A stretch of DNA of 64,000 nt from contig NZ_CP098518.1 in NCBI RefSeq assembly GCF_023703795.1, positions 868,001 through 932,000 of the forward strand, in the 5' to 3' direction. The position numbers and the translations under genes were made by a program. The notes beneath the pieces are model-generated. The model was given only the letters and a program-made list of their open reading frames with translations, searched no databases and was not told the DNA's origin. This document shows, in pieces, positions 3,347 to 23,244 of this stretch (within the stretch, counting starts at the first letter, position 1; each line of letters opens with the position of its first letter). Source of the DNA: Haloplanus sp. HW8-1. Lineage in GTDB: Archaea; Halobacteriota; Halobacteria; Halobacteriales; Haloferacaceae.

Positions 3347-3419
3347 GGGCGTGTGGCCTAGCGGATAGGGCGAGAGGTTCCTAACCTCTCGATCGCGGGT
3401 TCGAATCCCGCCACGCCCG
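3347..3419 (+). tRNA. tRNA-Arg (anticodon CCU)
   Basis: The 73-nt gene folds as a full cloverleaf. The acceptor stem GGGCGTG pairs with CACGCCC, the anticodon stem is AGAGG/CCTCT with loop TTCCTAA, and the T arm is GCGGG TTCGAAT CCCGC. The anticodon CCU reads AGG arginine codons. CCA is not encoded. Its 3' part is the target of the adjacent integrated element, whose insertion left the gene intact. Confidence 0.95.
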
Positions 3420-3797: not shown

Positions 3798-5138
3798 TCA
3801 GTCAGCCAGTGAGAAGTCTCGATCTACCTCTCGGATCAGTTTGCACAGATCATCCCCATCGACGAGCTTGACGTTCGAGTCGACTGCGACTTCCGATGCG
3901 TTCGAGGTGAATCGTCCGGTCGTCACGACGATCACTGCGTCCACATCATCCTCTTGAGCATACAGACCGGCATACTGCTGAACCTCGCTACTGCTCACGG
4001 GATTGTCCGAACTGTACCGTTTGGCCTGAATGATCTGTTTCTGTGGGAAAGGTGAATCCTGCTCGGCGATCACGTCGATACCTCGATCCACCGATGCAGT
4101 AGTCACCGACGTTCGCCATCCAATCTCGTTCCATAGCTCGGCGACGAGGTGTTCGAACTCGTACTCGTCCATCGACTGGAGCGTGGCGAGTAGCTGATCG
4201 TCGGAGAGTTCACTCAGTGTAGTGGCCGATGCGTTCGTGCCGGAAGCGTCAACGGCTTCTTGACTCGATACTCTGCCAGTCTCTGAGATCTCCTCAGTCT
4301 CCGATTCCAGCCGTTCGATCCGAGAGATACGCTTATCCAGCGAAGGATGGGTTGCGAGTAAGCTACTCGCTATCCCACCCGAGAAGTCGACGAAGCTGAT
4401 CGCGCTCCGACTTGCACTCATGTCTACATCATCGACACGTCGTTTCTCCGAGCGTAGCTTCTCCAGCGCACTTCGCATCCCGTCGTAGCGCCCCGTGGCT
4501 CGAACGGCATCCTCGTCGGCGACGTACTCGCGGTAACGGGACACCATTCCGACGAAGACGAGGAGGAAAAAGTGAACGCAGACGCTTACGGCTGCCCCCA
4601 CAAGACGCATGAGCCAAGGACGGTCGGAGTCAAGCGAGGCGAGTAGGAAGAGGATGAAAAGGCCAGATGAGACGATAGTGACGATGGAAGTCCCGAGGCC
4701 CATCAGTATAGAATCCCGATTGCGAAGATGGGCAAACTCGTGTGCGACGATTGGCTCCAACTCGTCGAGCGACATCCGCTGAACGAGACCCCTGTGGAGG
4801 AACACCTTCCCGCTCCCTCGCCGACCCAGTGCGAAGGCATTCAAGCGGTCGCTCTCGATCAGGTACATCTTGGGCTTCGGGATGTCTAACTCGTCGGCGA
4901 TCCGATCCGCTCGGTCGTGTAACTCAGGATGATCTTCGGGCGTGATCTCTCGGCTCTCCTCGGTCCATAGAGGAAATTGAACCGTTATGAGGTACTGGAG
5001 CACTACGAGCAGGGGAAGTCCCACGACAGCGACCCATATGCCACCGATTGCGAACAGGAGCAGTCCGATGAGCGCGTACACACCCATCAAGACGGTACTG
5101 GCGATGCCCATCCGAATCGTCAAACTGAGATCTCTCAT
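3798..5138 (-). CDS. M48 (HtpX-like) membrane metalloprotease fused to Mrr-type restriction nuclease
   Basis: Starting at ATG 5138, the product has 446 residues. Residues 10-55 form two membrane segments. A zinc-protease site HEFAH lies at 133-137, two more membrane segments at about 150-200, and the third-ligand region REYVADED at 203-210, as in HtpX/Ste24 M48 proteases. From about 322 to 446 a second domain matches Mrr catalytic domains: EFEHLVAELWNEIG, then RGIDVI (352-357) and IIQAKRY (369-375), the D...(Q)xK nuclease core. Mrr enzymes cut methylated or foreign DNA; HtpX degrades membrane proteins. The fusion suggests a membrane-tethered defence protein controlled by proteolysis, which is inference. 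A TATA-like box lies 23-30 nt upstream. Confidence 0.85.
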   Translation of the reverse strand: MRDLSLTIRMGIASTVLMGVYALIGLLLFAIGGIWVAVVGLPLLVVLQYLITVQFPLWTEESREITPEDHPELHDRADRIADELDIPKPKMYLIESDRLNAFALGRRGSGKVFLHRGLVQRMSLDELEPIVAHEFAHLRNRDSILMGLGTSIVTIVSSGLFILFLLASLDSDRPWLMRLVGAAVSVCVHFFLLVFVGMVSRYREYVADEDAVRATGRYDGMRSALEKLRSEKRRVDDVDMSASRSAISFVDFSGGIASSLLATHPSLDKRISRIERLESETEEISETGRVSSQEAVDASGTNASATTLSELSDDQLLATLQSMDEYEFEHLVAELWNEIGWRTSVTTASVDRGIDVIAEQDSPFPQKQIIQAKRYSSDNPVSSSEVQQYAGLYAQEDDVDAVIVVTTGRFTSNASEVAVDSNVKLVDGDDLCKLIREVDRDFSLAD

Positions 5139-5160
5139 CGGCGATCCCCTCGTGGGACGC

Positions 5161-5168
5161 AAATATTA
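5161..5168 (-). promoter_or_regulatory. TATA-like box of the M48-Mrr gene
   Basis: The minus-strand sequence TAATATTT sits 23-30 nt before ATG 5138. It supports that start and leaderless transcription. It lies beside the repeated promoter-like segment at 5174-5207. Confidence 0.5.
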
Positions 5169-8964: not shown

Positions 8965-8980
8965 GTCTGAACCTTCAGAC
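8965..8980. repeat. Perfect dyad copy GTCTGAACCTTCAGAC
   Basis: This copy equals the consensus exactly. It lies in the divergent intergenic region between the small DNA-binding gene (minus) and the BREX-like operon (plus, start 9082), so it could regulate either side. Confidence 0.7.
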
Positions 8981-9081: not shown

Positions 9082-11580
9082 ATGCAAATCTCTGAACTTC
9101 TCACTCCCCGCGACGAAGTCCTCGAAGGACGATTCCAAGGTGTCCTCCAAGCCCACAAGGTCACTGGCGATGACGAGCGACTTGAGAACGATCCGAACCG
9201 CTTGCTCACCGCTACGTACCCCTCGAACGCCCTCCGCAACGTCTTCGATCGAGTCGCCGACAAGCTCGCCGGTCGGGACAGTCAGGGCGGAATCATGCTC
9301 ACGGGGCCGTATGGCTCCGGTAAGTCCCACGGGCTACTCGTGCTCTACCATATGTTCAACCACCCGACTGTCGCCCAGTCGTGGGCCGACGAGTGGGACA
9401 TCCCGATCGACCTCCCGACAGACTCCGACGCCGCCATCGTCTCGACGAGTGAGACCGATGCGGATCTGATCTGGGAGCCGATCTATCGTAGTGCGGGGCG
9501 AGAGGACGTATTGGAGGAGATCGATCGGTATCCCACGACCGATCACGTCGAGAAGTTGGCCGAGAACGGAACCTACGGCGTGTTCTTCGACGAGATCGAG
9601 GCGTGGTGGGAATCGTTCTCCGAGGAGGCCGACCGAGATCTGCTCGAACGCAACCGCTTCTTCCTCCAGAACCTCCTCGAAGTCGCCAACGATCCCAACG
9701 AGAACCTCTTCGCCTTCATAACGCTCCTCGACAGGAGTGATCGGCTGAAGGAGATTCTCGACCGGACGAACCCACACGCCGAAGACCTGAACGCCACGGG
9801 CGACCGCGAACGGATCATCATCCACCGGCTGTTCGAGGGGACGCCGGACGACATCGACGAGAGCACGGTTCGATCGGTCGTGGAGCAGTACGTCGACAGC
9901 TACGAGTATCCCATCGAGATCGACGAGCCGAAACGCTACGAGAATCGGATGGTCGAGACCTATCCCTTCCACCCGGAGTTGCTCGACCTGCTCGACAGCA
10001 TCTACGAGGCGGCACGCGAACGCCAGAACGTCCGTGGCGTGATGAACGTCCTCGCCGACACCGTCCGTCAGGTACACGACGAGACGGATCTCGTCGTCAC
10101 CTCGGATGTCAACCCGCGGGCGTTCCGGGGGATCAACCGAACGCTGTTCGATCGCTTCACCTCGGACAAAGAGGAGCTTGGAGAGACCGAGCACGGAGTC
10201 GACCTACTTCAGGTGATCCTCCTCTATACGCTCGACGACCGCTCCCAGATGGCTTCGACGACGCAGTGTCTGCTCGGGACGTTCAAGCCCGACGAGACGA
10301 CCGTCGACCGCCTCCACATGACGCTGGAGGGACTCTACGGCACGGCTCACTACCTCGACAAGCAGGACGGGAGCTACTTCATCACCGAAGACCCGAAGCT
10401 GACCGCACTGATCACCCGCGAGCAGGAGCGCATCCTCGAAGAGAATCGTGACCGAGCGGTCGAAAAGCTCGTCGACGTTGTCCGAGACGAGGTGTTCGAT
10501 GGCAGTGTCTACGTCTACGGCTACGACGACGTACCGGACGAGAGCAAGCAGACGTTCGTGGTGACGCTGGAGAACATCTCCAACGGGACACTCACCTCCG
10601 AACTGAGCGATTTCTTCGAGGAACGACGATATCAGAACACCGTCCAGTTCATCACGCCGAAACAGAGCGTCCTCGAAGACGACGACATCGTCAGTAAGGC
10701 GGCACGGGTGTTCGGAGCGGAGAATCTTCGCGGCAAAGTCGAAGACGAACAGGGTGAGCTTGAGCCGCTGATCCGCGACGAGTACCGACAGCTACGGAAA
10801 GAACTGGAGAGTCGCTACGGGAAGTGGGTCAAGTGGAGTAGTACCCCGGACGGTGATCTCCGACTCCGTCGAATCACGGTCGATCCCGACATCGAAGCGG
10901 TCAAGGAACGGATCGGGAAGGACACGACCTATGTCGGGGAGGAAATCGTCGCCCGCGTCAAGGAGAACGAGGGTGGTATTCGCGTCGGATCACTTCTCAA
11001 CGATTTCCTTCAATTCCGTCGCCTTCCTGTCCTTCTCGACGAAGGGGTGTTCTACTCCGCCGTGAGCGAACTCCAGCGGAAGGGCGATATCGTGCTCGAA
11101 GGCAATCGAGCCAACTTCTACGTCGGCGATCTCGGTCAGTATCCCACGGAAATCGAGGACGAGATGACCATCCGACATCCCGACAATCTCCCAGAGTCGG
11201 TGTTCCGCGAGGAGACCGACGATGACGAAGACGAAACAGGTGACGACGACTCTGGAGGGGGCATTACCGACTGGGGAGGGGATGATGAGACGGACGACAA
11301 AACCGAGGATGATTCGAACGGAGACGACGAGACCGAGCCTACCGAGACGGAGCATTCGACCGAAACCGTCGAAGTCTCCCTCGAAGGGAACTCGGCACGG
11401 GTGCTCAAGAGCACCGCCGAATCGAGAATCAACGAGACGACGGACACCGCCACACACGTCCGACTGTCCTACGATGTCGGTGCTCTCTCGAAGTCCGAAC
11501 TTATCGGTTTCATCGAGGGGCTTCCGAACGGTGAGAAGATCGAGGCCAAGGTGGTGATCGAGCGTGACGCTGACGAGTGA
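9082..11580 (+). CDS. DUF499-type AAA+ ATPase, BrxC/PglY-like
   Basis: The 832-residue protein begins like DUF499 proteins (LLTPRDEVLEGRF). It has Walker A GPYGSGKS at 75-82, Walker B VFFDEIE at 167-173, and further AAA+ sensor-like segments up to about residue 450. A very acidic linker lies at about 700-760, followed by a separate C-terminal domain. Large ATPases of this kind (PglY, BrxC) are core parts of Pgl and BREX phage defence. It is the first gene of a tight operon: the next gene overlaps its last 17 nt. A TATA-like CTATTATT about 36 nt upstream is the likely promoter. The family call is from motifs; the defence role follows from the operon. Confidence 0.78.
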   Translation: MQISELLTPRDEVLEGRFQGVLQAHKVTGDDERLENDPNRLLTATYPSNALRNVFDRVADKLAGRDSQGGIMLTGPYGSGKSHGLLVLYHMFNHPTVAQSWADEWDIPIDLPTDSDAAIVSTSETDADLIWEPIYRSAGREDVLEEIDRYPTTDHVEKLAENGTYGVFFDEIEAWWESFSEEADRDLLERNRFFLQNLLEVANDPNENLFAFITLLDRSDRLKEILDRTNPHAEDLNATGDRERIIIHRLFEGTPDDIDESTVRSVVEQYVDSYEYPIEIDEPKRYENRMVETYPFHPELLDLLDSIYEAARERQNVRGVMNVLADTVRQVHDETDLVVTSDVNPRAFRGINRTLFDRFTSDKEELGETEHGVDLLQVILLYTLDDRSQMASTTQCLLGTFKPDETTVDRLHMTLEGLYGTAHYLDKQDGSYFITEDPKLTALITREQERILEENRDRAVEKLVDVVRDEVFDGSVYVYGYDDVPDESKQTFVVTLENISNGTLTSELSDFFEERRYQNTVQFITPKQSVLEDDDIVSKAARVFGAENLRGKVEDEQGELEPLIRDEYRQLRKELESRYGKWVKWSSTPDGDLRLRRITVDPDIEAVKERIGKDTTYVGEEIVARVKENEGGIRVGSLLNDFLQFRRLPVLLDEGVFYSAVSELQRKGDIVLEGNRANFYVGDLGQYPTEIEDEMTIRHPDNLPESVFREETDDDEDETGDDDSGGGITDWGGDDETDDKTEDDSNGDDETEPTETEHSTETVEVSLEGNSARVLKSTAESRINETTDTATHVRLSYDVGALSKSELIGFIEGLPNGEKIEAKVVIERDADE

Positions 11581-12463
11581 GCGGCTGGAGTCGCTGGTCG
11601 AGGCGGACGATCCCGTGGATGTCATCTGGGAGGCGTTGTGGGATATCTGGTGGCCGCCGTCTGAAGGTCCAGCCGATCACTACGACCACGACCGAGAGTG
11701 GGCATCGGTCGAACTGGAGCGGACGCTCGTCGACATCTACTGGGAGTTCTACAGCGAGGTGCTCCCGTGGCGATGTGTGAACGATGCGTCGATCGAGGTG
11801 CCTGACGACGGAGCCTTCCTCGTCATGGACGCGATGAGCGTCCGCGAGGCATCCCTGTTCGCCGCCGCGCTGGAGTCGGACGGGTACGACGTGGACGTGA
11901 GCTATTCGTATGCGACGGTGCCCTCGGAAACGACGCCGTACAAGAAGCGCGTCGGATACGCCGATCTGGATCGGGAGTTCCCCTCAGCGACGGTTCGAGA
12001 CCTACATCCCTCGCTCGCGGGTGACGAACGTCTCGTCTGGAGTCGGTACCCCGACGCCCTGCTGGAGAACATTCAGGAGGGGAAGACCGAGTTGTCGTCC
12101 GTCGAGGACGCCTACGACGACTCCCTCCGCGTGTTCCGATCGATCCTCGACCAACTCGACGCGGATCGGATCGTCGTCGGGGCGGATCACGGCTACGTGC
12201 GAGAGGAGTCGGGCTACTCCTTTGCGATCAGCGAGCACGAGAAGAACAGGCTTCGAGATACCTTCGGCGGTCAGCGATTCGTCGGCGTCGACGAGGCGGA
12301 TGCGGACGATCTCGTCGAGGATCGGCTGGCGGTCGAGGCGGACGGATACTATATGCCGGTCGGTCGGTACACGTGGCCGGTTCGCGGGAAATACAGCGTC
12401 TACCAACACGGTGGTCTGAGTCTCATGGAATGTCTTACCCCTCGTCTGGAGGTTCAGCGATGA
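11564..12463 (+). CDS. Minimal PglZ-like alkaline-phosphatase-superfamily protein
   Basis: The 299-residue product starts with GTG 11564 inside the upstream ATPase gene. The PglZ signature is complete though short. FLVMDAMSVREAS (85-97) contributes a metal-binding Asp89, VPSETTPY (119-126) the nucleophile Ser/Thr region, VVGADHGYV (204-212) Asp208-His209, and HGGLSLMECLTP (282-293) the final metal-binding His. Usual PglZ proteins of BREX and Pgl systems are about 700-900 residues; here only the catalytic core is present. PglZ is essential in BREX but its substrate is unknown. The stop overlaps the methylase start (ATGA), so ATPase, phosphatase and methylase are probably made together. Confidence 0.78.
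   Translation: MTLTSERLESLVEADDPVDVIWEALWDIWWPPSEGPADHYDHDREWASVELERTLVDIYWEFYSEVLPWRCVNDASIEVPDDGAFLVMDAMSVREASLFAAALESDGYDVDVSYSYATVPSETTPYKKRVGYADLDREFPSATVRDLHPSLAGDERLVWSRYPDALLENIQEGKTELSSVEDAYDDSLRVFRSILDQLDADRIVVGADHGYVREESGYSFAISEHEKNRLRDTFGGQRFVGVDEADADDLVEDRLAVEADGYYMPVGRYTWPVRGKYSVYQHGGLSLMECLTPRLEVQR
12444..12459. repeat. Dyad copy immediately before the methylase ATG
   Basis: The sequence GTCTGGAGGTTCAGCG ends one base before the ATG at 12460. It also encodes the last codons of the PglZ-like protein. Its GGAGG could act as a ribosome-binding site for the methylase, so binding here could affect that gene alone. Confidence 0.6.
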
Positions 12464-15126
12464 CGGATCGACGCCCGATCGAGATATCGTTCCCCATCGA
12501 TCAGGTGAACGAAATCGCGGAGAAGGAAGCCCACGCCAAGCGGTACTACCGTCCCGTCTACACCATGCACAAGTGGTGGGCGCGACGGCTCGGCTCGGTC
12601 TTCCGGACGATGCTACTCTACTCCCTCGCCGACGGGGAGATGTCCGTCCGTGGCGAGCGCCAGTCGACGTTCCAAGAGGAGAACGGGCTTCCGGAGATCG
12701 ACTGGGACAACCCTGACGCGCTCTGGGAATACTACCTCGAAGATGTCGACTTCGACGGCAAGACCGTGCTCGACCCGTTCATGGGCGGTGGGACGAGTAT
12801 CGTCGAGTCGCTTCGTCTGGGCTGTAACGCCATCGGGAGCGAATTGAATCCCGTCGCGTGGTTCGTCGTCAAGAAGGAAGTGGAGCCGGTCGACTTGGAC
12901 GACCTCGACGCCGCATTCGAGAAACTGGAAGCGAGCGTCGGCGAGGAGATTCAGGACTACTACCGAACTGAGTGTCCCCACTGTGACGAGCACGCCGACG
13001 CGATGTACTACTTCTGGGTCGACGAACTTCCGTGTCGGAACTGCGGGGAGGATGTGGCGCTGTTCAAAGACTATCGGCTCTCGAACGCTCGATCGTCGAA
13101 GGACGATCACTACAACGTTGTCTGCCCGGACTGCTGGCACGTCTTCGAGACCGACGACTATCGTACAGATACCACCTGCCCTGAATGCTCACGAGAGTAC
13201 ACCCCGAAGGACGCCGGGAATGCCTCTCGTGGGAGTTACACTTGTCCCCACTGCGACGAGCATCCGGAGATGTCGATCATCGAGAGTGCGGAGCGGTTCG
13301 GCAAGGCGGAAAAGTCGCTCTTCGCGGTCGAATACTACTGCCCTGAGACCGACGAAAAAGGGTACAAATCTGCGACCGAGTTCGACCGAGAACTGTTCGC
13401 TGAGGCGGAGGCAGAACTCAACGAGAAGCGAGACGAACTCCCGATACCGACTACGGAGCGGTATCGAGGAAGTTCTGATCGGGCGCGAAACCACGGCTAC
13501 GAGCGATACGATCAGATGTTCAACGCTCGTCAATTGCTCGGCCTCTCAAAACTCCTGAATGAAATTGATGATATCGAGAATCAAAATCTCAAGGAGCTTC
13601 TGCTCTTAGCGTTTTCAAGCTCTCTGGCGTACAATAATATGTTCTGCGAGTACGATAAGCCATATAACAAGCTCACAGGGATCTACAAGCGACATACAAT
13701 CACGGCTCGCCATACCCCTGTTGAAAATAACGTCTGGGGAACAGAGTATGGTCGGGGTGCATTCTCTGGTGAGTTCGATAAAATGCGAGCGGGCAAAGAG
13801 TTCTGCCAGAATCCCTACGAGAAGTACGTCGAAGACGGTGAGACGAAACAGCGCGACGGCATCGGGAAGATCGAGGGGTTCGTAACTGACGACCCCGACC
13901 GGATCGGCGACCCTGTCGAGGGACAGGAGGATGCGACCTACAACGTCCATCTCCGCTGTGGGACTTCGGAGTACCTCCCCGTCGAAGACAATAGCGTTGA
14001 CGCCGTCATCACCGACCCACCGTACTTTGACAACGTGATGTACTCCGAGACGGCGGACTTCTACTACGTCTGGCTCAAGCAGGTGCTCGAAGACGAGTAC
14101 GACCACTTCACCTCCGAACTCACTCCGAAGGCCAGCGAGGTGGTGAGCGACCCCGCAGGCGAGGACAGCGTCGACACCTACCGCGACGAGGATCACTTCG
14201 TCACGGGGCTGACGAACGTCTTCGATCAGGCGAATCAGAAGCTCAAGGACGACGGTATCATGGCCTTCACCTTCCACCACAAAGATCCGGAAGGGTGGAG
14301 CACGGTGCTGAAGTCCGTGCTCGAAGCGGGCTTCTACATCACCGCGCTGTACCCCATCCGTGGAGAGATGCGAGGGTCGACACACATCCACGATAAGGCC
14401 AACATCGAATACGACATGATCGTGGTGTGTCGGGATCGCGTGGAAGACCCCGAGACGGTCAGTTGGCGCTCGCTGGAGGACGAGATCTACTTCCGCGCCG
14501 AAGAAGAAATCAACCGCCTCGAAGAGAGCGGGTCGCGGCTCACGCAGGGGGATATCTTCGCCGTGACGATGGGCAAGTGTCTCGAAGTGTACTCCCGCCA
14601 CTTCCCGAACGTCACCCACGAGGGAAGCGAGATGTCGGTCGACGACGCAGTGGGAACGATCCGCGACATCGTCGACGAGCAGTTGATGGAAGAGCGTATC
14701 CAGACCCTCAGCGACGAGATGGACGCCCTCAGCGCCGTCTACCTGACCTACGTGCTCGGACGGGGCGATACCGTCTCCTACAACTCGCTCAACAAGGACC
14801 TGCGAACGCGAGGTGTGGATGTCGCCGAACTCGTCACGGAGCGCCTACTCCAGCAGAAGGGGGATCAGTTGGCCGTGCTCTCCCCCGAGAAGCGAGCCGA
14901 GGCCATCGAGGGGAAGCGCGATCCGCTGGCAATCGATCGGGCGCACTACCTCCGATATCTTTACGAAGTCGACCGACTCGCTCAGGAGTTCGGGAAGTGG
15001 AGCGATACCGAGTCGATCGCCGCGCTTCGACGGCTCGCCGATATCGAGAACGACGACGAGTACGCGGACATCGCGGACTACGTCGAGGAGCGAACCGACG
15101 AACAGCTCGACCTCGGCGACTTCTGA
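12460..15126 (+). CDS. DUF1156 adenine-specific DNA methylase with Zn ribbons (PglXI-type)
   Basis: The 888-residue protein from ATG 12460 opens with the DUF1156 pattern YYRPVYTMHKWWARR (29-43). Next comes DPFMGGGTSIVE (105-116), the AdoMet-binding motif I. Several Cys-x2-Cys pairs (CPHC, CRNC, CPDC, CPEC, CPHC between 172 and 265) form Zn ribbons. The catalytic motif ITDPPYFDNV lies at about 516-525. This is the COG1743 family, which, as I recall, supplies the PglXI methylase of type 3 BREX and also occurs beside DUF499 proteins in other defence loci. It probably methylates adenine to mark self DNA. An AT-richer patch at 13540-13740 interrupts otherwise GC-rich codon use. Confidence 0.82.
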   Translation: MTDRRPIEISFPIDQVNEIAEKEAHAKRYYRPVYTMHKWWARRLGSVFRTMLLYSLADGEMSVRGERQSTFQEENGLPEIDWDNPDALWEYYLEDVDFDGKTVLDPFMGGGTSIVESLRLGCNAIGSELNPVAWFVVKKEVEPVDLDDLDAAFEKLEASVGEEIQDYYRTECPHCDEHADAMYYFWVDELPCRNCGEDVALFKDYRLSNARSSKDDHYNVVCPDCWHVFETDDYRTDTTCPECSREYTPKDAGNASRGSYTCPHCDEHPEMSIIESAERFGKAEKSLFAVEYYCPETDEKGYKSATEFDRELFAEAEAELNEKRDELPIPTTERYRGSSDRARNHGYERYDQMFNARQLLGLSKLLNEIDDIENQNLKELLLLAFSSSLAYNNMFCEYDKPYNKLTGIYKRHTITARHTPVENNVWGTEYGRGAFSGEFDKMRAGKEFCQNPYEKYVEDGETKQRDGIGKIEGFVTDDPDRIGDPVEGQEDATYNVHLRCGTSEYLPVEDNSVDAVITDPPYFDNVMYSETADFYYVWLKQVLEDEYDHFTSELTPKASEVVSDPAGEDSVDTYRDEDHFVTGLTNVFDQANQKLKDDGIMAFTFHHKDPEGWSTVLKSVLEAGFYITALYPIRGEMRGSTHIHDKANIEYDMIVVCRDRVEDPETVSWRSLEDEIYFRAEEEINRLEESGSRLTQGDIFAVTMGKCLEVYSRHFPNVTHEGSEMSVDDAVGTIRDIVDEQLMEERIQTLSDEMDALSAVYLTYVLGRGDTVSYNSLNKDLRTRGVDVAELVTERLLQQKGDQLAVLSPEKRAEAIEGKRDPLAIDRAHYLRYLYEVDRLAQEFGKWSDTESIAALRRLADIENDDEYADIADYVEERTDEQLDLGDF

Positions 15127-15175: not shown

Positions 15176-15574
15176 ATGACGCTGGAAATCGGCTACCACG
15201 TTATGTCGCAGGACGCGGCTGCGAAGCACGGCGTCTACGACGACGAACTGAGCATCGTCGAGTTCCTCCGGCACGTCGACCAGCAGGAAGAACTCCCGCT
15301 CGACGTGACCGTCACTGGACTCGACGACTACCTCGCCGCTGCGGACGATCCCGAGGACGCCGCCGAGCACGTCCACGAACTTCTCCGAGACCGGGTCAAC
15401 TTCATCATGAACCAGAGTCCCGTGATTCAGTTCGTGGTCGACGACGTGGAGACGTGGAACGGTGGAGTGCTCTCGGCTGAGGGTACAGACATCCGGCTCA
15501 TAACGATCTTCGGAGGAAGTATCGATCAAGAGGGTGCCGGGTGGTACGCCGGAGAGTTCAACGTTCAGACGTAG
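15176..15574 (+). CDS. Hypothetical protein downstream of the BREX-like operon
   Basis: The 132-residue acidic protein starts at ATG 15176, 50 bp after the methylase, with a TATA-like GGTTTATGAA (15135-15144) about 32-41 nt upstream that could give it its own promoter. No catalytic motif is evident; it is a mix of predicted helices and strands with no membrane segment. Its last codons contain a degenerate half of the dyad (TTCAGAC at 15564-15570). I do not recognise the family. Its position suggests an accessory part of the defence operon. Confidence 0.6.
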   Translation: MTLEIGYHVMSQDAAAKHGVYDDELSIVEFLRHVDQQEELPLDVTVTGLDDYLAAADDPEDAAEHVHELLRDRVNFIMNQSPVIQFVVDDVETWNGGVLSAEGTDIRLITIFGGSIDQEGAGWYAGEFNVQT

Positions 15575-15836
15575 TCGCAGAGAGTCAGTGTGTGGAAGGT
15601 TGCTCTGCGCCTATTTCATCACCTTCCGCTTCGAGAGGATGGAAACCCCTTGGTGAGTGATGCAGGTTCGTGAGACCGGCGTCAGTGCCTTCTCCGCGAT
15701 GCCAGCGGCCGAGATCTGACTGTGACCTTGGTCACGATCATAAGTCAGACCAGCCTGTTTGATGTTTTCACTTCGGTTGCCTTCACGATTCACCGGGGGT
15801 CAAAACACTAACCCTACTGGGTATTCATCTGGCTGT

Positions 15837-16346
15837 ATGACGGTTTACGCGGAGGCAGCCCAACGCCTTCGAACGCTGGTTACTTTTCTTGAGGCAGAAG
15901 GAATCCCAATCCCGAGAACCGAGTTGACCGGCAACCTTGGGGAGTGGTTGGTCATGGATAGGCTCATAGAACGAGGGTATGAGCCAACCCTCTACTCTGC
16001 CCAGCATGACTACGACATAGAGTTGGCTGATGGAACGCGGGTGGAGGTGAAATCGGGGCAGTACGACGTGGAGGATTCACTGTGGCGATTCGACAATATC
16101 TACCCCGACCGCTTTGATATCCTCGTCGCAGTCAAATTTAAGGACGAGTTTGAGCAGGAAGTCTTCTACTTGTTTGATGCAGATGAGACGGCGAACCTGC
16201 CACCAAGGACGATGACGAATCCGGATGATGAGAGACGGTTAATACGACTTCGTGAGGACCCAACCCGGCACCGCAGGTCTGATATGCAGACACTTAATGA
16301 GCGAATCACCCGACATCGGGATGCTTGGGAGAAAATTCATAGCTAA
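15837..16346 (+). CDS. Possible PD-(D/E)XK nuclease-like protein
   Basis: From ATG 15837 the product has 169 residues. The segment GNLGEWLVMDRLIERGYEP is followed by HDYDIELADGTRVEVKSG. This matches the core of PD-(D/E)XK nucleases: a helix with Glu, then an Asp, then ExK (EVK) at about residues 68-70. The rest predicts further strands and a basic C-terminal helix. Composition is AT-richer than the neighbouring methylase, so it may have a separate origin. It could be the restriction partner of the methylase or a Holliday-junction-type nuclease. Confidence 0.6.
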   Translation: MTVYAEAAQRLRTLVTFLEAEGIPIPRTELTGNLGEWLVMDRLIERGYEPTLYSAQHDYDIELADGTRVEVKSGQYDVEDSLWRFDNIYPDRFDILVAVKFKDEFEQEVFYLFDADETANLPPRTMTNPDDERRLIRLREDPTRHRRSDMQTLNERITRHRDAWEKIHS

Positions 16347-17423: not shown

Positions 17424-18434
17424 CTACATTCCGTCGAGATATTCCCGTCGCTGTTCGACCTTCACCTCCTCGCTCCGTCTGTCGTAGTGCTCGTCCAGTA
17501 CCTCCTGACTGACGTTCATGCGGTCACTGACGACCTTCTCAGGCACGTCCTCGGTCAGGAAGTGCGTGATCGCCCCGCGACGGACGGCGTGCGAAGAGAC
17601 GGATGACGGGCACTTGCTCGCGTGCCCGTGCTTCCCCGCTTCGCATTCGTCGGGATCGCGGTCGTGGGGACAGCCGCTCCCGTACTGACAGGGTCGCGTC
17701 CAGCGGTACACGATGTCCCGCACCGTCGAGATATGGGGACGACCCTGCTTGGTCGCCAGTAGCGGCTCTCGACCCTCGTCGTCGACAACGTCTGGACGTT
17801 CATACGCGAGCCAGTCCTCGACGACGGTGCAGGTCTCGGTAGTCAGCGCGATGTATCGCTCGCCGTCCTCTTTGTTCTTCAGCGGCGTCTCGTCCCTGTG
17901 CTGAACCTTCAGACGCTCCTCGTCGGGGTCGTAGTCGTCGACATCGAGCGCCCGAACACCGCCCGCTCTGACACCCGTGCGCCAGAGGAGACGGAGGAGG
18001 ACGTGCTCCAGCGAGGCGTACTCGAAGCGGCGTAGGTGGCCGAGGATCTCGTCTGCTCGCTCGCTTTCGAGCATCACGTCGCGCTGGTTGTCGCTCCCCG
18101 AGAGCGTCGGGGACAGTACCTTCTCGTGGAGTTGAGGCAGGACGGCGTCGATGGATTCGCAGAAACGGACGAACACCCGCACCGTGTCCATCTGGGTCTT
18201 CAGGCTCGCCTTGGTCAGGTCACCGTCTTCCTGTCGCCAGAGCTTGTAGCGGTGCAGGTCACGTCCGGACAGGTCATTGAGGTTGTCGACGCCTTCCTGC
18301 TCACACCAGCGGAGGAGGTGCTTGAGGCGGTACTCGTGGGACTGGAGCGTCGATGAGGTGACTTCGGGACGACGCTCTTGCAGGTACATCTGTACGGCTT
18401 CGTCGGGTTCGATGGGTTCGAGTTCGTCGGACAT
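17424..18434 (-). CDS. Tyrosine recombinase / integrase
   Basis: The 336-residue enzyme has an N-terminal SAM-like core-binding domain (about 5-110) and a catalytic domain. Catalytic residues are visible: an arginine in RTGVRAGGV (about 152), HAVRR at 282-286 and the nucleophile in DEHYDRR (Tyr317). A Cys/His-rich insertion lies before the HxxR motif (CQYGSGCP, DPDECE, SKCP). The gene is whole, unlike SSV-type integrases that split on integration, and sits 27 bp from the right att copy. It should catalyse integration into and excision from tRNA-Arg. It contains a dyad copy at 17899-17914. Confidence 0.92.
   Translation of the reverse strand: MSDELEPIEPDEAVQMYLQERRPEVTSSTLQSHEYRLKHLLRWCEQEGVDNLNDLSGRDLHRYKLWRQEDGDLTKASLKTQMDTVRVFVRFCESIDAVLPQLHEKVLSPTLSGSDNQRDVMLESERADEILGHLRRFEYASLEHVLLRLLWRTGVRAGGVRALDVDDYDPDEERLKVQHRDETPLKNKEDGERYIALTTETCTVVEDWLAYERPDVVDDEGREPLLATKQGRPHISTVRDIVYRWTRPCQYGSGCPHDRDPDECEAGKHGHASKCPSSVSSHAVRRGAITHFLTEDVPEKVVSDRMNVSQEVLDEHYDRRSEEVKVEQRREYLDGM
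17899..17914. repeat. Dyad copy inside the integrase gene
   Basis: The sequence TGCTGAACCTTCAGAC lies within codons of the integrase (read as LKVQ). Placement inside a conserved gene argues that the motif is maintained or tolerated at many kinds of site. Confidence 0.5.
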
Positions 18435-18460: not shown

Positions 18461-18555
18461 TTCCGAACCTCTCGACCGCGCCACCGCGAGCGAAGCGAGC
18501 GGTGGTTAGTCGGGCCGTCAGGCCCGACGCAAGGTTCGAATCCCGCCACGCCCGT
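18461..18555 (+). repeat. Right attachment site, split copy of the tRNA-Arg 3' half
   Basis: Bases 18461-18480 match the anticodon region of the tRNA (18 of 20) and 18533-18555 match its 3' end exactly (23 of 23). Between them is a 52-bp insertion with two hairpins: CCACCGC...GCGGTGG at 18481-18505 and CGGGCC...GGCCCG near 18510-18527. Without the insertion this would be a 43-nt duplicate of the tRNA 3' half. Confidence 0.75.
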
Positions 18556-18608: not shown

Positions 18609-18636
18609 TTCGCTCGCGGGACTCCCGCCACGCCCG
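18609..18636 (+). repeat. 28-bp direct repeat, left copy
   Basis: This matches 23171-23198 at 26 of 28 positions and ends in a tRNA-like CCCGCCACGCCCG. The two copies enclose the PglX-like gene and suggest a second integration unit next to the first. Confidence 0.65.
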
Positions 18637-18693
18637 ATTTCCGTCCGAACGGAGGACCGCTGTCTGCAGGTCGGCGCTGGGCTGCCGGCGAGA

Positions 18694-21600
18694 CTACAGA
18701 ACGTCGTCGTCGACGACCTCGGGGACGATTTCGGCCTCCACGAGCGGCGTGATGTTGATTTCGACGCCGTGCTTGCGGTTGGGTTGATACCCCTCGGTCG
18801 TGATCTCAGAGAGTGCGCGATCGACCCAGTCGGAAGAAATGTCGTTCGCGATCTCGTCGCAGGCGTCCCCGATCTCGGTCGCGAGCGCCTCGTACTCGTC
18901 GAGACCACTCGCCAGTTTGGCACAGAGCCGTTGCCGCGCCGAGACGCCGCCCTCGCCGATCTGCGCCTGACCGGCGTCCTCGAACTGGTCGTAGTAGTAC
19001 GTCGTAAAGAGGATGCCGTTGCTCGCGTAGTGTGTCGAGCCGACGAGGTCGTCGTAATATTCGAAGAGGTCGTACAGGTGTGCCTCGACCGGTTCGTCCC
19101 CGGCTGCGGCGTAGGCCTCGAAGGCGGTTTCGAGGGCATCGAGGGCGTCGAGCCACTCCTCGCGGTTTTCCTTGACCGTCTCGTAAAACGAGGGGCTGAA
19201 CAGATCGCCCATGTCGACGTCCGGAAGGGCAGCCAGTTCTGCCAGCGTCTCCAGCCGCGATGCCGTCCGCTCTCGGAACTCGGCGACCCGCTCGGCGGCC
19301 GCACGCGCGACTTGCCGGTTCTCCGCGGGCCAGTCGCGTGGCTCGGACTGTGCCAGGTCGGCGAGTCGATCCTCGAAGACGGCGATCTGTTCGAGGCCGC
19401 TCTCACAGCGGGTGTACGCCTCGGCGGCTTCGGACCGCTCGGTCGCCGAGAGCGCCCCGTCGCTACGCCGCCGGTTAGCCGCGCCTCGCCGCTCCCGGAG
19501 CAGGGCCTTTCGCGGTTCGAGGTAGTGGTTCCGGAGGCGGTCGAGGACGCCCGCGTCCAACTGGTGGTAGTCGACGAGGCAGCCGAAGCCCTCGCCCTCG
19601 GAGTCGGATACGAGGCGTTCGGTCGTCAACCGCCACAGAATCGGGGTCCGGTCGAACGTCGAGACGTGGTGGTCGAAGAGGTCGTCTTCGAGCCACGTTC
19701 GGAGGTTCGGATAGGCCTCTTGGGCCGCCGACTCGCTCCCCAGAATTCGGTCGACCTCCGCGAGGCGGTCGGTGGCCCGATCACCGAAGAGGCGGTCGAA
19801 GGCCGCCTCGATGTGCGCGAGGAGGCCGCCCTCGCTGCCGACGTCGGAAAAGGGCACGATGCCGTCATCCTGCTCGGCGACGACACGAATCGCGAGATGG
19901 AGCAGGAGATCCTTGACCATCTCCGGGAAGTCGTCGGTCGGTTCGGTGATGGATTCGGGGTCGTATTCTTCGTGTTCGCGGGGATCCTCGATGGTCCGGA
20001 GGGCGATCTCCTGGAACACCGTCTCGCGCCGATCGTCGGCGATGCCGAAACAGTCGAACACCGCCTCGTCGATGGCGTCCGCACACGCTTGGAGGTTCGC
20101 CTCGATGCGTTCGAGATGTCGTGCGGCGGCGACACCGAGTTCGTCCAGCGAAGCGTCTACCGAGACGGTCTCTGGGGGGTCGTCGAGTTCGAGTTCGTCC
20201 CGGAGTTCGCGGTGGGGATGCTCGTGCTGTGGGAGCGGGTCGCCGACGCCGAGAACGTCGAGAAGGATCGGACCGTCGTAATGTGGCGAGACGAAGTCGT
20301 ACTGGCGCTTGGAGACGAGGTGGCCGACGGCCTCGCGGGAGAGGGCTGCAAGATCGTCGTGTTCCGCCAGCGCACTCAGCCACGGAACATTCGAAACGAG
20401 GCCAACCTCCCAGTTTCGTTCCGTGGTCTGGGCGAGCATTAAATACGTGAACAACTGGCTGTTCGCGTACGCCAGGCCGTTCCAGATCCGTCGGGTCGGG
20501 AGGAGCGCGGAACCCATGTGGCCGAAGACGGAACTGGGATGGAGATACCCGAATCGACGACCGCTCTCCTTGATGAGCGTATAGGTGAGTGCCTCGTTGA
20601 AATAATACTGTGTGTTCTGTGGCCTCGATCCCCAATATCTCTTTATTTCTGTCCCACTGTCTCCCCAGAGCACGGTTTTCTTCACTCGGGGGAGTATCCA
20701 CGCGTCCGCACCTCCCTTCGCGAACGGCGGCCAGCCCTCGGACTGTGCCTCCCAGAAATCACGGACGAACCGCGAGTCGTCTGCAGTCGCCAAGCCCTGT
20801 TTGATGACGCCGTACGTGTCCCGACCGGTGGTACTCGAGTTGTCGGCATCGAGGACCGAATCCGCTTCGTATAGGGACCGGAGTTCCGTTGGAACCCAGT
20901 AGGAAAGGGGGCTGCCCGGAACCTTCTGGAACTCGGAGAGGGTACACGTGTATCGTCGTTGTACGTCCCCCCGTTGGCTTTCGAGAAAGGCAGCGCGCAG
21001 GAAGACACGTTCTTTCCGATCCGTTTCGACATCCTCCAGTCGGATAAACGTCCCCTCGGAGTTCTCGGTGGACTCCGATCTGACGACCATCCCCGCCGTG
21101 CGAACCGTCGCGTCGTCCAGAACGCCGATGCCGTACTCCGCGAGAAAGTCGAACGACCCACGGCCCCCGATGAAGTCCTCCCGGAACTGCTGGAGGGACG
21201 TCTTGAACATGAACGACCGTGGAACCAGCAGCCCCGTTCGTCCGTCCCGTTTGACGAGGCGGTCACAGGCTTCGAAGAAGTTGATGTAATATTCGGTCGT
21301 GTAGTCGTAGTGATCGGTGATATACTCCTGTACGTCGTTCGGCATCCGTCCCCCGGAACCGTACGGCGGATTCATCAACGCCACGTCGTAGTCCTGTGTC
21401 AACACTACCAGCAAATTCAGGAAACTTCGAAGGTTCTGCTCGCCGAACGAGTCCGACGTGCGGTCCGCGACGGCCGCCCGCAACTCCTTCAGGAAGGCGT
21501 GAAGCGTTTGGGGCGCGTCGTCGTCCCATGCCATGACGTCGGCCTGGCCCGTCTCGAACTCGTCTTCGAGTGCCCCCTGCACGTCGAGGAGGCTGCCGAG

Positions 21601-22911
21601 CGCATCGGTGGTCTGGAACTCCTCGATGACGCCGTCGAGGGCCGCCCGAACGTCGGTGCCCTCGCCCGTGATGTCGTCGAGGACTCCGGCCGCCGCTTCG
21701 ACTTCGGCCACGCGGGCGTCGGCACACACGACACCGAGGGTCGGCATCTCGAAGTCCTCACTCTCCGCTTCGGCGCGGGTTCGGCCCTTCAGATAGAGGT
21801 TGAACGCCGAGAGCTGACACGACCGGAGGTCGATGTCGACGCCGTAGAGGTTGTGTTCGAGGATCTTCGCGGGAATCTCACCCCGGTCGAGGTCGGTTTC
21901 GGCCCACCAGATGCGTTCGAGGATGTCGAAGGCATAGAGCAAGAAGTGACCGCTTCCACAGGCGGGGTCGACGACGCGAAGGTCCGAGGGGTGATCGAAT
22001 TCGGGGGCCTCCCGACCGCCCTCCTCGGGAATGAGATACGTACAGAGTTCGGGGACGGTCGGCGCGTCCTCGGGCGTGGCGAGGCGCTCCTTGCGCTCTT
22101 CGGGTGAGCGAGCCTCCGGGTCGGGGACCGCCGACTCCCGACCGACCGACTCGAGATAGAGTTTGCCGAGGCTGTTGTCGGCGAGCATCCGCACGACCCA
22201 GTGGGGGGTATAAAACTGGTTCGCCGGTCCCACGTCCTCGGGTTCGAGCGTGTTCTTGGCGTCGAGGGCTTCGACGACCGGTCGATTGTAGTATTCGTAC
22301 ACCCATCCGAGGACGTCGTCGGCCCGCCAGACCTCGTCGGGCACCTCGTCCAACAGCCCACAGAGTTCTTCGAAGGTGTCGCCGTCGGGGTCGAGCAGAC
22401 TATAGGACGACGAGCGGTCGAAGAGGATCTCGATCTCCGCGGCGAGGTCGTCACAGGCGTCGTGGTAGGCCGTCAAGATCGCTTCGTCCTCCAGCAAAAA
22501 CTGCTCGTGGACGAGCGTCTCGGCGGCCGGAGTCAGGCCGTCGCCCTTGAAGACGGTGACTTCCTCGTCGAGGAAATTCCGCACCTCCATGCACCGCAGC
22601 GCGGCCAGGCGATTGACGATGGTGTAGCCCACGCCCGTGACGTACTGGTCGACGGCTTCGGTCCACGACTCGCCGTCGACGGCTTCGAGTTCGATCGCTT
22701 CGACGAGTTTCCGCGGTTCGTCGTCGAGCGCATCGTGGTTTTCGGGGGCATCGTCGAGACCCCGCCGTGTGAGTTGGTACTCGACGTTGGCCTCGACGCG
22801 ATCACGCATCTCGGCGACGATCTCCTCGAGGTGTTCGCGTTCGGCCTCGTCCAACTGTGCCGTCCGCTCGTGTGAGACGTGATCCGTCATAGGGAGAGTT
22901 GAATACGCCAT
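18694..22911 (-). CDS. pglX: Large PglX-like (BREX-5 type) adenine DNA methyltransferase
   Basis: The 1405-residue protein (1398 if it starts at ATG 22890) has an N-terminal helical region. The methylase core shows NQFYTPHWVVRML, motif I DPACGSGHFLL (about 315), a VCADA motif, and motif IV MNPPYGSGG (about 510), diagnostic for N6-adenine methylation. The C-terminal 700 residues are helical and likely hold target recognition. Length and layout fit PglX of BREX systems; I recall the closest relatives being haloarchaeal BREX type 5. None of the usual partners adjoin it. It lies between 28-bp direct repeats. AT-richer segments (about 20440-20700) may mark a swapped recognition domain. Confidence 0.75.
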   Translation of the reverse strand: MAYSTLPMTDHVSHERTAQLDEAEREHLEEIVAEMRDRVEANVEYQLTRRGLDDAPENHDALDDEPRKLVEAIELEAVDGESWTEAVDQYVTGVGYTIVNRLAALRCMEVRNFLDEEVTVFKGDGLTPAAETLVHEQFLLEDEAILTAYHDACDDLAAEIEILFDRSSSYSLLDPDGDTFEELCGLLDEVPDEVWRADDVLGWVYEYYNRPVVEALDAKNTLEPEDVGPANQFYTPHWVVRMLADNSLGKLYLESVGRESAVPDPEARSPEERKERLATPEDAPTVPELCTYLIPEEGGREAPEFDHPSDLRVVDPACGSGHFLLYAFDILERIWWAETDLDRGEIPAKILEHNLYGVDIDLRSCQLSAFNLYLKGRTRAEAESEDFEMPTLGVVCADARVAEVEAAAGVLDDITGEGTDVRAALDGVIEEFQTTDALGSLLDVQGALEDEFETGQADVMAWDDDAPQTLHAFLKELRAAVADRTSDSFGEQNLRSFLNLLVVLTQDYDVALMNPPYGSGGRMPNDVQEYITDHYDYTTEYYINFFEACDRLVKRDGRTGLLVPRSFMFKTSLQQFREDFIGGRGSFDFLAEYGIGVLDDATVRTAGMVVRSESTENSEGTFIRLEDVETDRKERVFLRAAFLESQRGDVQRRYTCTLSEFQKVPGSPLSYWVPTELRSLYEADSVLDADNSSTTGRDTYGVIKQGLATADDSRFVRDFWEAQSEGWPPFAKGGADAWILPRVKKTVLWGDSGTEIKRYWGSRPQNTQYYFNEALTYTLIKESGRRFGYLHPSSVFGHMGSALLPTRRIWNGLAYANSQLFTYLMLAQTTERNWEVGLVSNVPWLSALAEHDDLAALSREAVGHLVSKRQYDFVSPHYDGPILLDVLGVGDPLPQHEHPHRELRDELELDDPPETVSVDASLDELGVAAARHLERIEANLQACADAIDEAVFDCFGIADDRRETVFQEIALRTIEDPREHEEYDPESITEPTDDFPEMVKDLLLHLAIRVVAEQDDGIVPFSDVGSEGGLLAHIEAAFDRLFGDRATDRLAEVDRILGSESAAQEAYPNLRTWLEDDLFDHHVSTFDRTPILWRLTTERLVSDSEGEGFGCLVDYHQLDAGVLDRLRNHYLEPRKALLRERRGAANRRRSDGALSATERSEAAEAYTRCESGLEQIAVFEDRLADLAQSEPRDWPAENRQVARAAAERVAEFRERTASRLETLAELAALPDVDMGDLFSPSFYETVKENREEWLDALDALETAFEAYAAAGDEPVEAHLYDLFEYYDDLVGSTHYASNGILFTTYYYDQFEDAGQAQIGEGGVSARQRLCAKLASGLDEYEALATEIGDACDEIANDISSDWVDRALSEITTEGYQPNRKHGVEINITPLVEAEIVPEVVDDDVL

Positions 22912-23244
22912 CAACAGCGGCGGGTAGTTTCAAACTTGTCTCCCTCGGACTCGATTGCCCCCGACGACTCGGAGGACGAGAAACCGAGGTCCTCCGGTTC
23001 GAACGACGGCACCGACGAGCGACCCTTCGTATTCGGGGCGATACTTTGGCACGGGGGGCGTCGAGGCGGAGATCGGATCGACGCGCTCGCAGGAACAGCC
23101 GTACGGCTCCATCGGGGTCGTCGGACGGGAGCGATCCACCCGAACGCCCACCGTGTACCCGCCGGCTCGCTTCGCTCGCGGGGCTCCCGCCACGTCCGCG
23201 TCACACGAGCCACCTCTAAGTGTCGAGGGAGCCAAGGGGAGGGT
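22912..23244. other. Gene-free junction with a tRNA-like repeat
   Basis: No gene is supported in these 333 bp. Near the right end is the second copy of the 28-bp repeat (23171-23198). The rest is GC-rich sequence without acidic coding frames and may be degraded element DNA. Confidence 0.5.
23171..23198 (+). repeat. 28-bp direct repeat, right copy
   Basis: This differs from 18609-18636 at two positions. It lies about 50 bp before the first chromosomal gene and probably marks the outer edge of the whole insertion complex. Confidence 0.65.

Follow-up and report, generated by a model that had tools for sequence, protein, structure and literature searches.

BREX-Related (BR) systems, as outlined by Rakesh and Krishnan (NAR, January 2026; PMC12839542), are centred on DUF499, a domain that the same report places in a clade separate from DUF6079/BrxC. 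Among them, Type-3 BR is described as a DUF499 ATPase, a DUF1156 methylase, a nuclease-free Swi2/Snf2 helicase and a standalone PglZ, accompanied in 82% of the systems by an inactive STAND (iSTAND) protein, and the main text of that article includes no helicase-less archaeal form (PMC12839542). The way in which PglZ-based systems block viruses remains a matter of debate. In the PglZ of E. fergusonii, the T538A substitution abolished nuclease activity and lowered defence by ~3 logs, and mutation of H741, like that of T538, removes or reduces nuclease activity; these two residues are the equivalents of T272 and H500 of PorX (PMC12205998).

In this work, we analysed a 64,000-nt stretch of the genome of Haloplanus sp. 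HW8-1 (hereafter, the window), where an initial annotation had read three overlapping genes as a minimal cassette of BREX/Pgl enzymes and proposed a distinct, compact BREX-like type. We show that the locus is a helicase-less archaeal variant of a BR kind published months earlier, and not a new BREX type. Our main reading, to which we assign a probability of roughly 70%, is that of a four-gene predicted restriction-modification (RM)-like defence operon, closest to Type-3 BR and devoid of the Swi2/Snf2 helicase. The operon is composed as follows:

9082 to 11580, + strand: DUF499 AAA+ ATPase, 832 aa, HmaC-like (PF04465, PADLOC HmaC match, conserved columns)
11564 to 12463, + strand: standalone PglZ-domain protein, predicted phosphodiesterase/nuclease, 299 aa, GTG start (fold, invariant residues)
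12460 to 15126, + strand: DUF1156 N6-adenine-type DNA methyltransferase, 888 aa from ATG (DUF1156, N6_N4_Mtase and HmaB matches)
15176 to 15574, + strand: fourth operon gene, 132 aa, candidate inactive-STAND (BrxB/BrxF-like) adaptor (kept in 31/31 loci)

The search for related loci covered 391 Halobacteria genomes, of which 33 matched the short PglZ, 31 of them strongly; these 31 proteins fall into two clades, with ~54-95% and 27-31% identity to the protein of the window. The order DUF499, PglZ, DUF1156 methylase and ~130-aa gene was found at all 31 haloarchaeal loci, which belong to more than 20 genera, the small gene having been called in 27 of them and recovered from raw frames in the other 4. 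The triple thus recurs throughout without brx genes, together with a fourth gene that contradicts the earlier statement that the cassette held three genes and nothing else; neither BrxA nor BrxL was found at the operon, and no other gene is shared by more than 5 of the 31 neighbourhoods. All four genes are under purifying selection, with dN/dS values of 0.06-0.16 relative to the two closest relatives. Given this recurrence and these values, the operon is not a chance arrangement. The three overlapping + strand reading frames are intact (9082-11580, 11564-12463 and ending at 15126), and their overlaps of 17 nt (ATPase and PglZ genes) and 4 nt (pglZ and methylase genes, an ATGA junction) are exact and identical in the two closest relatives; elsewhere, the first junction measures mostly 17 or 11 nt in the other clade A loci and mostly 8 nt in clade B. 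The longest frame of the methylase gene opens at GTG 12373, ATG 12460 being the likely start.

Beyond the Halobacteria, the same four-gene order is present at two complete archaeal loci (L108 and L109), both with a ~130-aa gene in place, which gave a significant family match in L109 only (1.4e-16). The viral contigs scanned with the haloarchaeal PglZ yielded no relatives, and neither did the phage records searched for PglZ relatives. The locus is also carried on haloarchaeal plasmids, including pHLAC01 of Halorubrum lacusprofundi (NC_012030.1:97421-103918). Several neighbouring genes were recorded as well: a HerA-like ATPase (DUF87) directly 3' of the four genes in the non-halobacterial L108 (13182-14366), RadC immediately 5' of the operon in L107 and L109, and a separate DNA adenine methylase of 284 aa after the operon in L104 (13131-13985) and L134 (10133-10987), such a trailing methylase being found at several clade A loci (cluster C9, in 4 loci). 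In the window, a 195-aa frame lies 3' of the operon (15759-16346; 169 aa from 15837), with a weak mREase_II match (0.002) and no counterpart kept at other loci.

The identity of the short PglZ was addressed by profile, structure and residue conservation. Profile searches for the three enzymes gave a divided outcome, with DUF499 and DUF1156 passing their cutoffs and PglZ (PF08665) reaching 18.9 bits against a cutoff of 25; the PADLOC PglZ matches were at 2e-7. Despite this sub-cutoff profile score, the predicted structure identifies the 299-residue protein as a genuine PglZ domain, as had been proposed. An AF2 model built from 19 relatives (mean pLDDT 82.6) retrieved PorX (2.3e-8) and BREX PglZ (8.1e-6) with Foldseek, and in VIA comparisons it aligned to the PglZ domain of PorX, the closest solved structure, with Z 17.3 over 266 residues, helical linker included, and to BREX PglZ with Z 13.4, covering residues 382-749 of the latter only. 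The homologues are all of ~300 aa, and none has a full-length BREX-type N-terminal domain. All of the motifs quoted initially are present and their catalytic residues are invariant: D89, T123, D164, D208, H209 and H282 are kept in the 31 haloarchaeal and several bacterial homologues. We take these six residues to be equivalent to the Thr nucleophile and two-metal centre known from the nucleotide pyrophosphatase/alkaline phosphatase superfamily. By motif, T123 and H282 are the predicted counterparts of E. fergusonii T538 and H741. At one probable ligand position of the second metal site, nearly all haloarchaeal proteins have Glu (E168) where the bacterial homologues have His, so that metal use may differ. 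As for the small size pointed out initially, it is not new, since a standalone PglZ is already a published hallmark of Type-3 BR (PMC12839542).

A sister haloarchaeal set (L126-L133) combines a DUF499 protein (1064-1090 aa), at least one DUF1156 methylase and, mostly, a ~130-aa gene, and is devoid of PglZ. Genes of ~410 and ~600 aa are repeatedly found next to it; for the L129 pair, both members of which were scanned, an AAA_5 (McrB-type) match was obtained and the McrBC component PF10117 fell just under its cutoff. This set is seemingly commoner than the PglZ form. The exchange of PglZ for a McrB/McrC-like pair argues for PglZ being in an effector slot and suggests that a core of DUF499, DUF1156 and ~130-aa proteins accepts different effectors. 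Whether this amounts to a separate archaeal BR subtype, defined by a helicase-less core with plug-in effectors and the DUF499 ATPase as its sole motor, is in our estimation an even bet.

The same observations bear on what PglZ acts upon. In a signalling or abortive system with the methylase as sensor, PglZ would act on (cyclic) oligonucleotides or deplete nucleotides, as could be expected from its nearest solved fold, PorX being a phosphodiesterase that acts on oligonucleotides, both cyclic and linear, and from the ability of BREX PglZ to cleave cA6 as well. However, the protein occurs with a DNA methylase and an ATPase resembling BrxC at 31 of 31 loci, and it is McrBC-like DNA-restriction genes that replace it in the sister set; we thus consider a nucleotide-directed function unlikely, and an RM-like defence with PglZ as its nuclease effector remains the likely prediction.

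The remaining two enzymes distinguish the operon from BREX. The 832-aa ATPase matches DUF499 (PF04465) with 41.2 bits (cutoff 23; 6.7e-11) and DUF6079 (BrxC) with 12.2 bits, under the cutoff of 23, and its best PADLOC profile is HmaC (1.8e-23), followed at a distance by BrxC (3e-4). Its Walker A motif GPYGSGKS (K81, S82) and Walker B residues D170-E171 are kept among homologues. In a quick DUF499 tree, with several long branches and an inner order without resolution, the Hma/Type-1 BR ATPases split off (SH-aLRT 100) from a group formed by the family of the window, the sister set and bacterial Type-3 BR, the placement of the last being unsure because its branch is very long. The 888-aa methylase matches DUF1156 (27.7 bits, cutoff 24; 2.9e-6) and N6_N4_Mtase (50.8 bits; 2.8e-13), with HmaB as best PADLOC profile (5e-50) ahead of PglX (6e-21). 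It displays a DPPY motif and several zinc-finger Cys pairs in an insert between motifs I and IV; the DPPY motif and 7 Cys columns are kept in at least 30 of 31 homologues.

Of the BREX/Pgl enzyme trio named in the initial annotation, PglZ therefore holds, whereas the ATPase is HmaC-like rather than BrxC and the methylase HmaB-like rather than PglX. A true BREX/Pgl system reduced to a BrxC/PglY ATPase, PglZ and PglX after loss of brxA, brxB and brxL would explain the presence of all three enzyme kinds, the PADLOC PglZ match and the weak BrxC one. This is nevertheless improbable: the best profiles are HmaC and HmaB, DUF499 and BrxC belong to the separate clades cited above, and the genome has a BREX locus of its own, whose proteins match quite different models. 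The latter locus (L062, G000:C1:1102000-1121900), at ~1.11 Mb on the same contig, encodes BrxC, PglX (1440 aa), PglZ (759 aa) and BrxHII (968 aa), with a small reading frame between PglZ and BrxHII. A minimal BREX system was rejected on the profile matches and, because the ATPase is of the DUF499 type, the methylase is of the Hma/DUF1156 type and BrxA and BrxL were not found, the proposal of a distinct compact BREX-like type is abandoned in favour of a BR-type operon.

The operon is located in an integrated element, as initially suggested, which is recognized by an exact pair of 22-bp tRNA-Arg 3'-end repeats enclosing an integrase gene:

3398 to 3419, + strand: attL, 3' end of tRNA-Arg(CCT) (tRNA 3347-3419), 22-bp core GGTTCGAATCCCGCCACGCCCG (repeat match)
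8967 to 8978, + strand: element-private palindrome CTGAANNTTCAG, possible operator, ~100 nt 5' of the first ATG of the operon
17424 to 18434, - strand: tyrosine integrase of the element, 336 aa (PF00589, 1.5e-9)
18533 to 18554, + strand: attR, exact copy of the 22-bp tRNA-Arg core, just past the integrase gene (repeat match)

The element spans ~15.1 kb with a G+C content of 0.569, against 0.67-0.68 on its flanks. Integrase relatives of the same length lie beside the locus in two other genomes (G173 and G290); the same tRNA-Arg adjoins the locus in G173, and the same tRNA flank is found in G290. No clean empty site was seen in other species of the genus, where the flanks are not adjacent, and integration is accordingly argued from the att repeats and the tRNA linkage. 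Allowing up to 1 mismatch, CTGAANNTTCAG has 14 sites (0.75 expected) between 5237 and 17912 of the window, all within the element and mostly intergenic; TCTGAANNTTCAG has 9 matches in the 3.84-Mb genome, 9/9 inside the element. The palindrome is also present in the related elements L032 and L033, and it is possibly the operator of an element regulator. At its tRNA end, the element encodes a fusion of a peptidase M48 with a restriction nuclease domain of the Mrr type (3798-5162).

A full-length PglX gene (18694-22914, - strand; 2315 bits) lies 3.6 kb from the operon, beyond attR, in a cassette of ~4.6 kb bounded by tRNA-end-like 28-nt repeats that are 93% identical (18609-18636 and 23171-23198); no integrase was found in this cassette (18609-23198). 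This PglX was considered as a component of the system and rejected, since it is outside the 22-bp att pair, has its own repeats and lacks a counterpart beside the loci of relatives.

Regarding the helicase, none recurs at the 31 haloarchaeal loci, and none of the archaeal loci has it at the operon apart from a single weak stray match (L047). The Type-3 BR helicase is encoded downstream in 13 of 13 loci from bacterial plasmids and viral contigs; all nine viral-contig loci (L135-L143) have a SNF2 helicase, and the order DUF499, PglZ, DUF1156, ~170-aa gene and SNF2 helicase, in agreement with Type-3 BR, was observed at plasmid loci of Klebsiella (L102), Candidatus Tenderia (L103), Aminobacter (L115) and Ensifer (L116). 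A SNF2 protein is likewise encoded at all Hma-like haloarchaeal loci (L117-L125). Type-3 BR loci were seen on plasmids of Klebsiella, Enterobacter, Citrobacter and Raoultella, mostly predicted to be conjugative, and the Klebsiella locus (NZ_CP114377.1, 2071-15100) has two extra genes, for SIR2 and an ATP-binding protein, after PglZ and before the methylase.

The missing function could in principle be provided in trans, by the BrxHII helicase of a host BREX system or by the neighbouring PglX, and the genome of the window does encode a BrxHII-like helicase adjacent to the PglZ of its BREX locus, besides the nearby PglX. Even so, 9 of the 31 locus-bearing genomes gave no genome-wide match to the Type-3 BR helicase (E<=1e-10), so that the helicase is not simply supplied in trans, at least not as a general solution; moreover, PglX resides in its own repeat-flanked cassette and two relatives from the same genus have no PglX-sized gene beside the locus. 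We regard such a dependence as having little probability. A selfish RM-type module that mainly maintains an integrative element or plasmid, although compatible with the att-flanked and plasmid locations and with the element-private palindrome upstream, is very improbable, given that the operon also occurs on large contigs that have no mobile gene in common (an integrase-family gene is present in 5/31 neighbourhoods only) and that H. lacusprofundi ACAM34_UNSW lost pHLAC01 with its locus yet survived (PMC10544981).

Returning to the fourth gene, the 132-aa protein has no Pfam or PADLOC match. Its AF2 model, of moderate confidence (pLDDT 71), displays a weakly predicted P-loop-NTPase-like alpha/beta fold with no visible Walker A motif; the top VIA rows are nearly all P-loop NTPases with weak scores (Z 4.2-5.7), and Foldseek returned nothing below 0.001. 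The gene occupies the slot of a 165-173-aa gene in bacterial Type-3 BR loci. Homology to this ~170-aa slot protein is not supported by profile comparison: hhalign gave probabilities of 0.1-0.2, and column shuffles reached equally high scores. The comparison was run against sets of 2, 4 and 9 sequences from bacteria, the largest of which probably includes a wrong-frame product; a shuffle score of 133 seems to stem from a parsing error. From its position and weakly predicted fold, we infer that the protein could be an inactive STAND adaptor, a distant counterpart of BrxB/BrxF. Since models place BrxB on residues 1-96 of PglZ, a domain missing from the short protein, a BrxB-style docking is not feasible.

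On the preferred reading of an RM-like defence operon, the DUF1156 methylase would mark host DNA, while the DUF499 ATPase, by analogy with BrxC, may bind DNA and assemble the complex. ATPase and methylase together would scan for unmarked DNA, whereupon the short PglZ, as a putative metal-dependent nuclease, would nick or cut the foreign molecule. With no helicase, any DNA remodelling would have to come from the DUF499 ATPase. The ~130-aa protein would be a non-catalytic adaptor that takes the position of BrxB/BrxF, more likely bridging PglZ to the ATPase/methylase core. With four genes, a PglZ of ~300 residues, no helicase and no BrxB-docking domain, the operon would be close to the smallest system in which the sufficiency of PglZ nuclease, methylase and ATPase could be examined, and its lack of a helicase is the feature most worth testing. 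The pHLAC01 locus and the plasmid-free ACAM34_UNSW offer a ready test bed: this laboratory strain, lacking pHLAC01, is virus-sensitive and has been suggested as a recipient into which single systems could be re-introduced, the pHLAC01 CRISPR locus being the cause of resistance favoured by that study (PMC10544981).

Compared with known systems, the operon shares with PorX the Thr nucleophile and metal-site arrangement of the PglZ domain, PorX being a single two-component regulator of secretion found outside any methylase operon. With BREX (Types 1-6) and Pgl it has in common a core of PglZ-fold protein, AAA+ ATPase and DNA methylase; however, BREX employs BrxC (DUF6079), BrxX/PglX and BrxA/BrxB, none of which was identified at the operon, and a PglZ of ~750-880 aa with an N-terminal BrxB-binding domain, in contrast to the 299 aa, without this domain, found here. 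Hma (Type-1 BR, HmaABC) provides the best PADLOC matches, to its HmaC-like DUF499 ATPase and HmaB-like DUF1156 methylase, but has the helicase-nuclease HmaA, absent at the operon loci, and no PglZ. Type-3 BR shares the DUF499 ATPase, the DUF1156 N6-methylase with a TRD insert and extra zinc fingers, a standalone PglZ whose catalytic residues are identical, the presence of a small gene right after the methylase, and the gene order of its bacterial plasmid examples. It differs in having a Swi2/Snf2 (BrxHII-like) helicase and a leading HTH gene, neither present in the archaeal operon, and in the size of the methylase (~1070 aa, against ~880 aa) and of the small gene (~170 aa, against ~130 aa, the two not being demonstrably homologous). 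Agreeing in ATPase, methylase and PglZ, having in the ~130-aa protein a candidate for the iSTAND component and departing in the helicase, the operon is thus filed as a helicase-less, Type-3 BR-like system rather than as a full member of that type.
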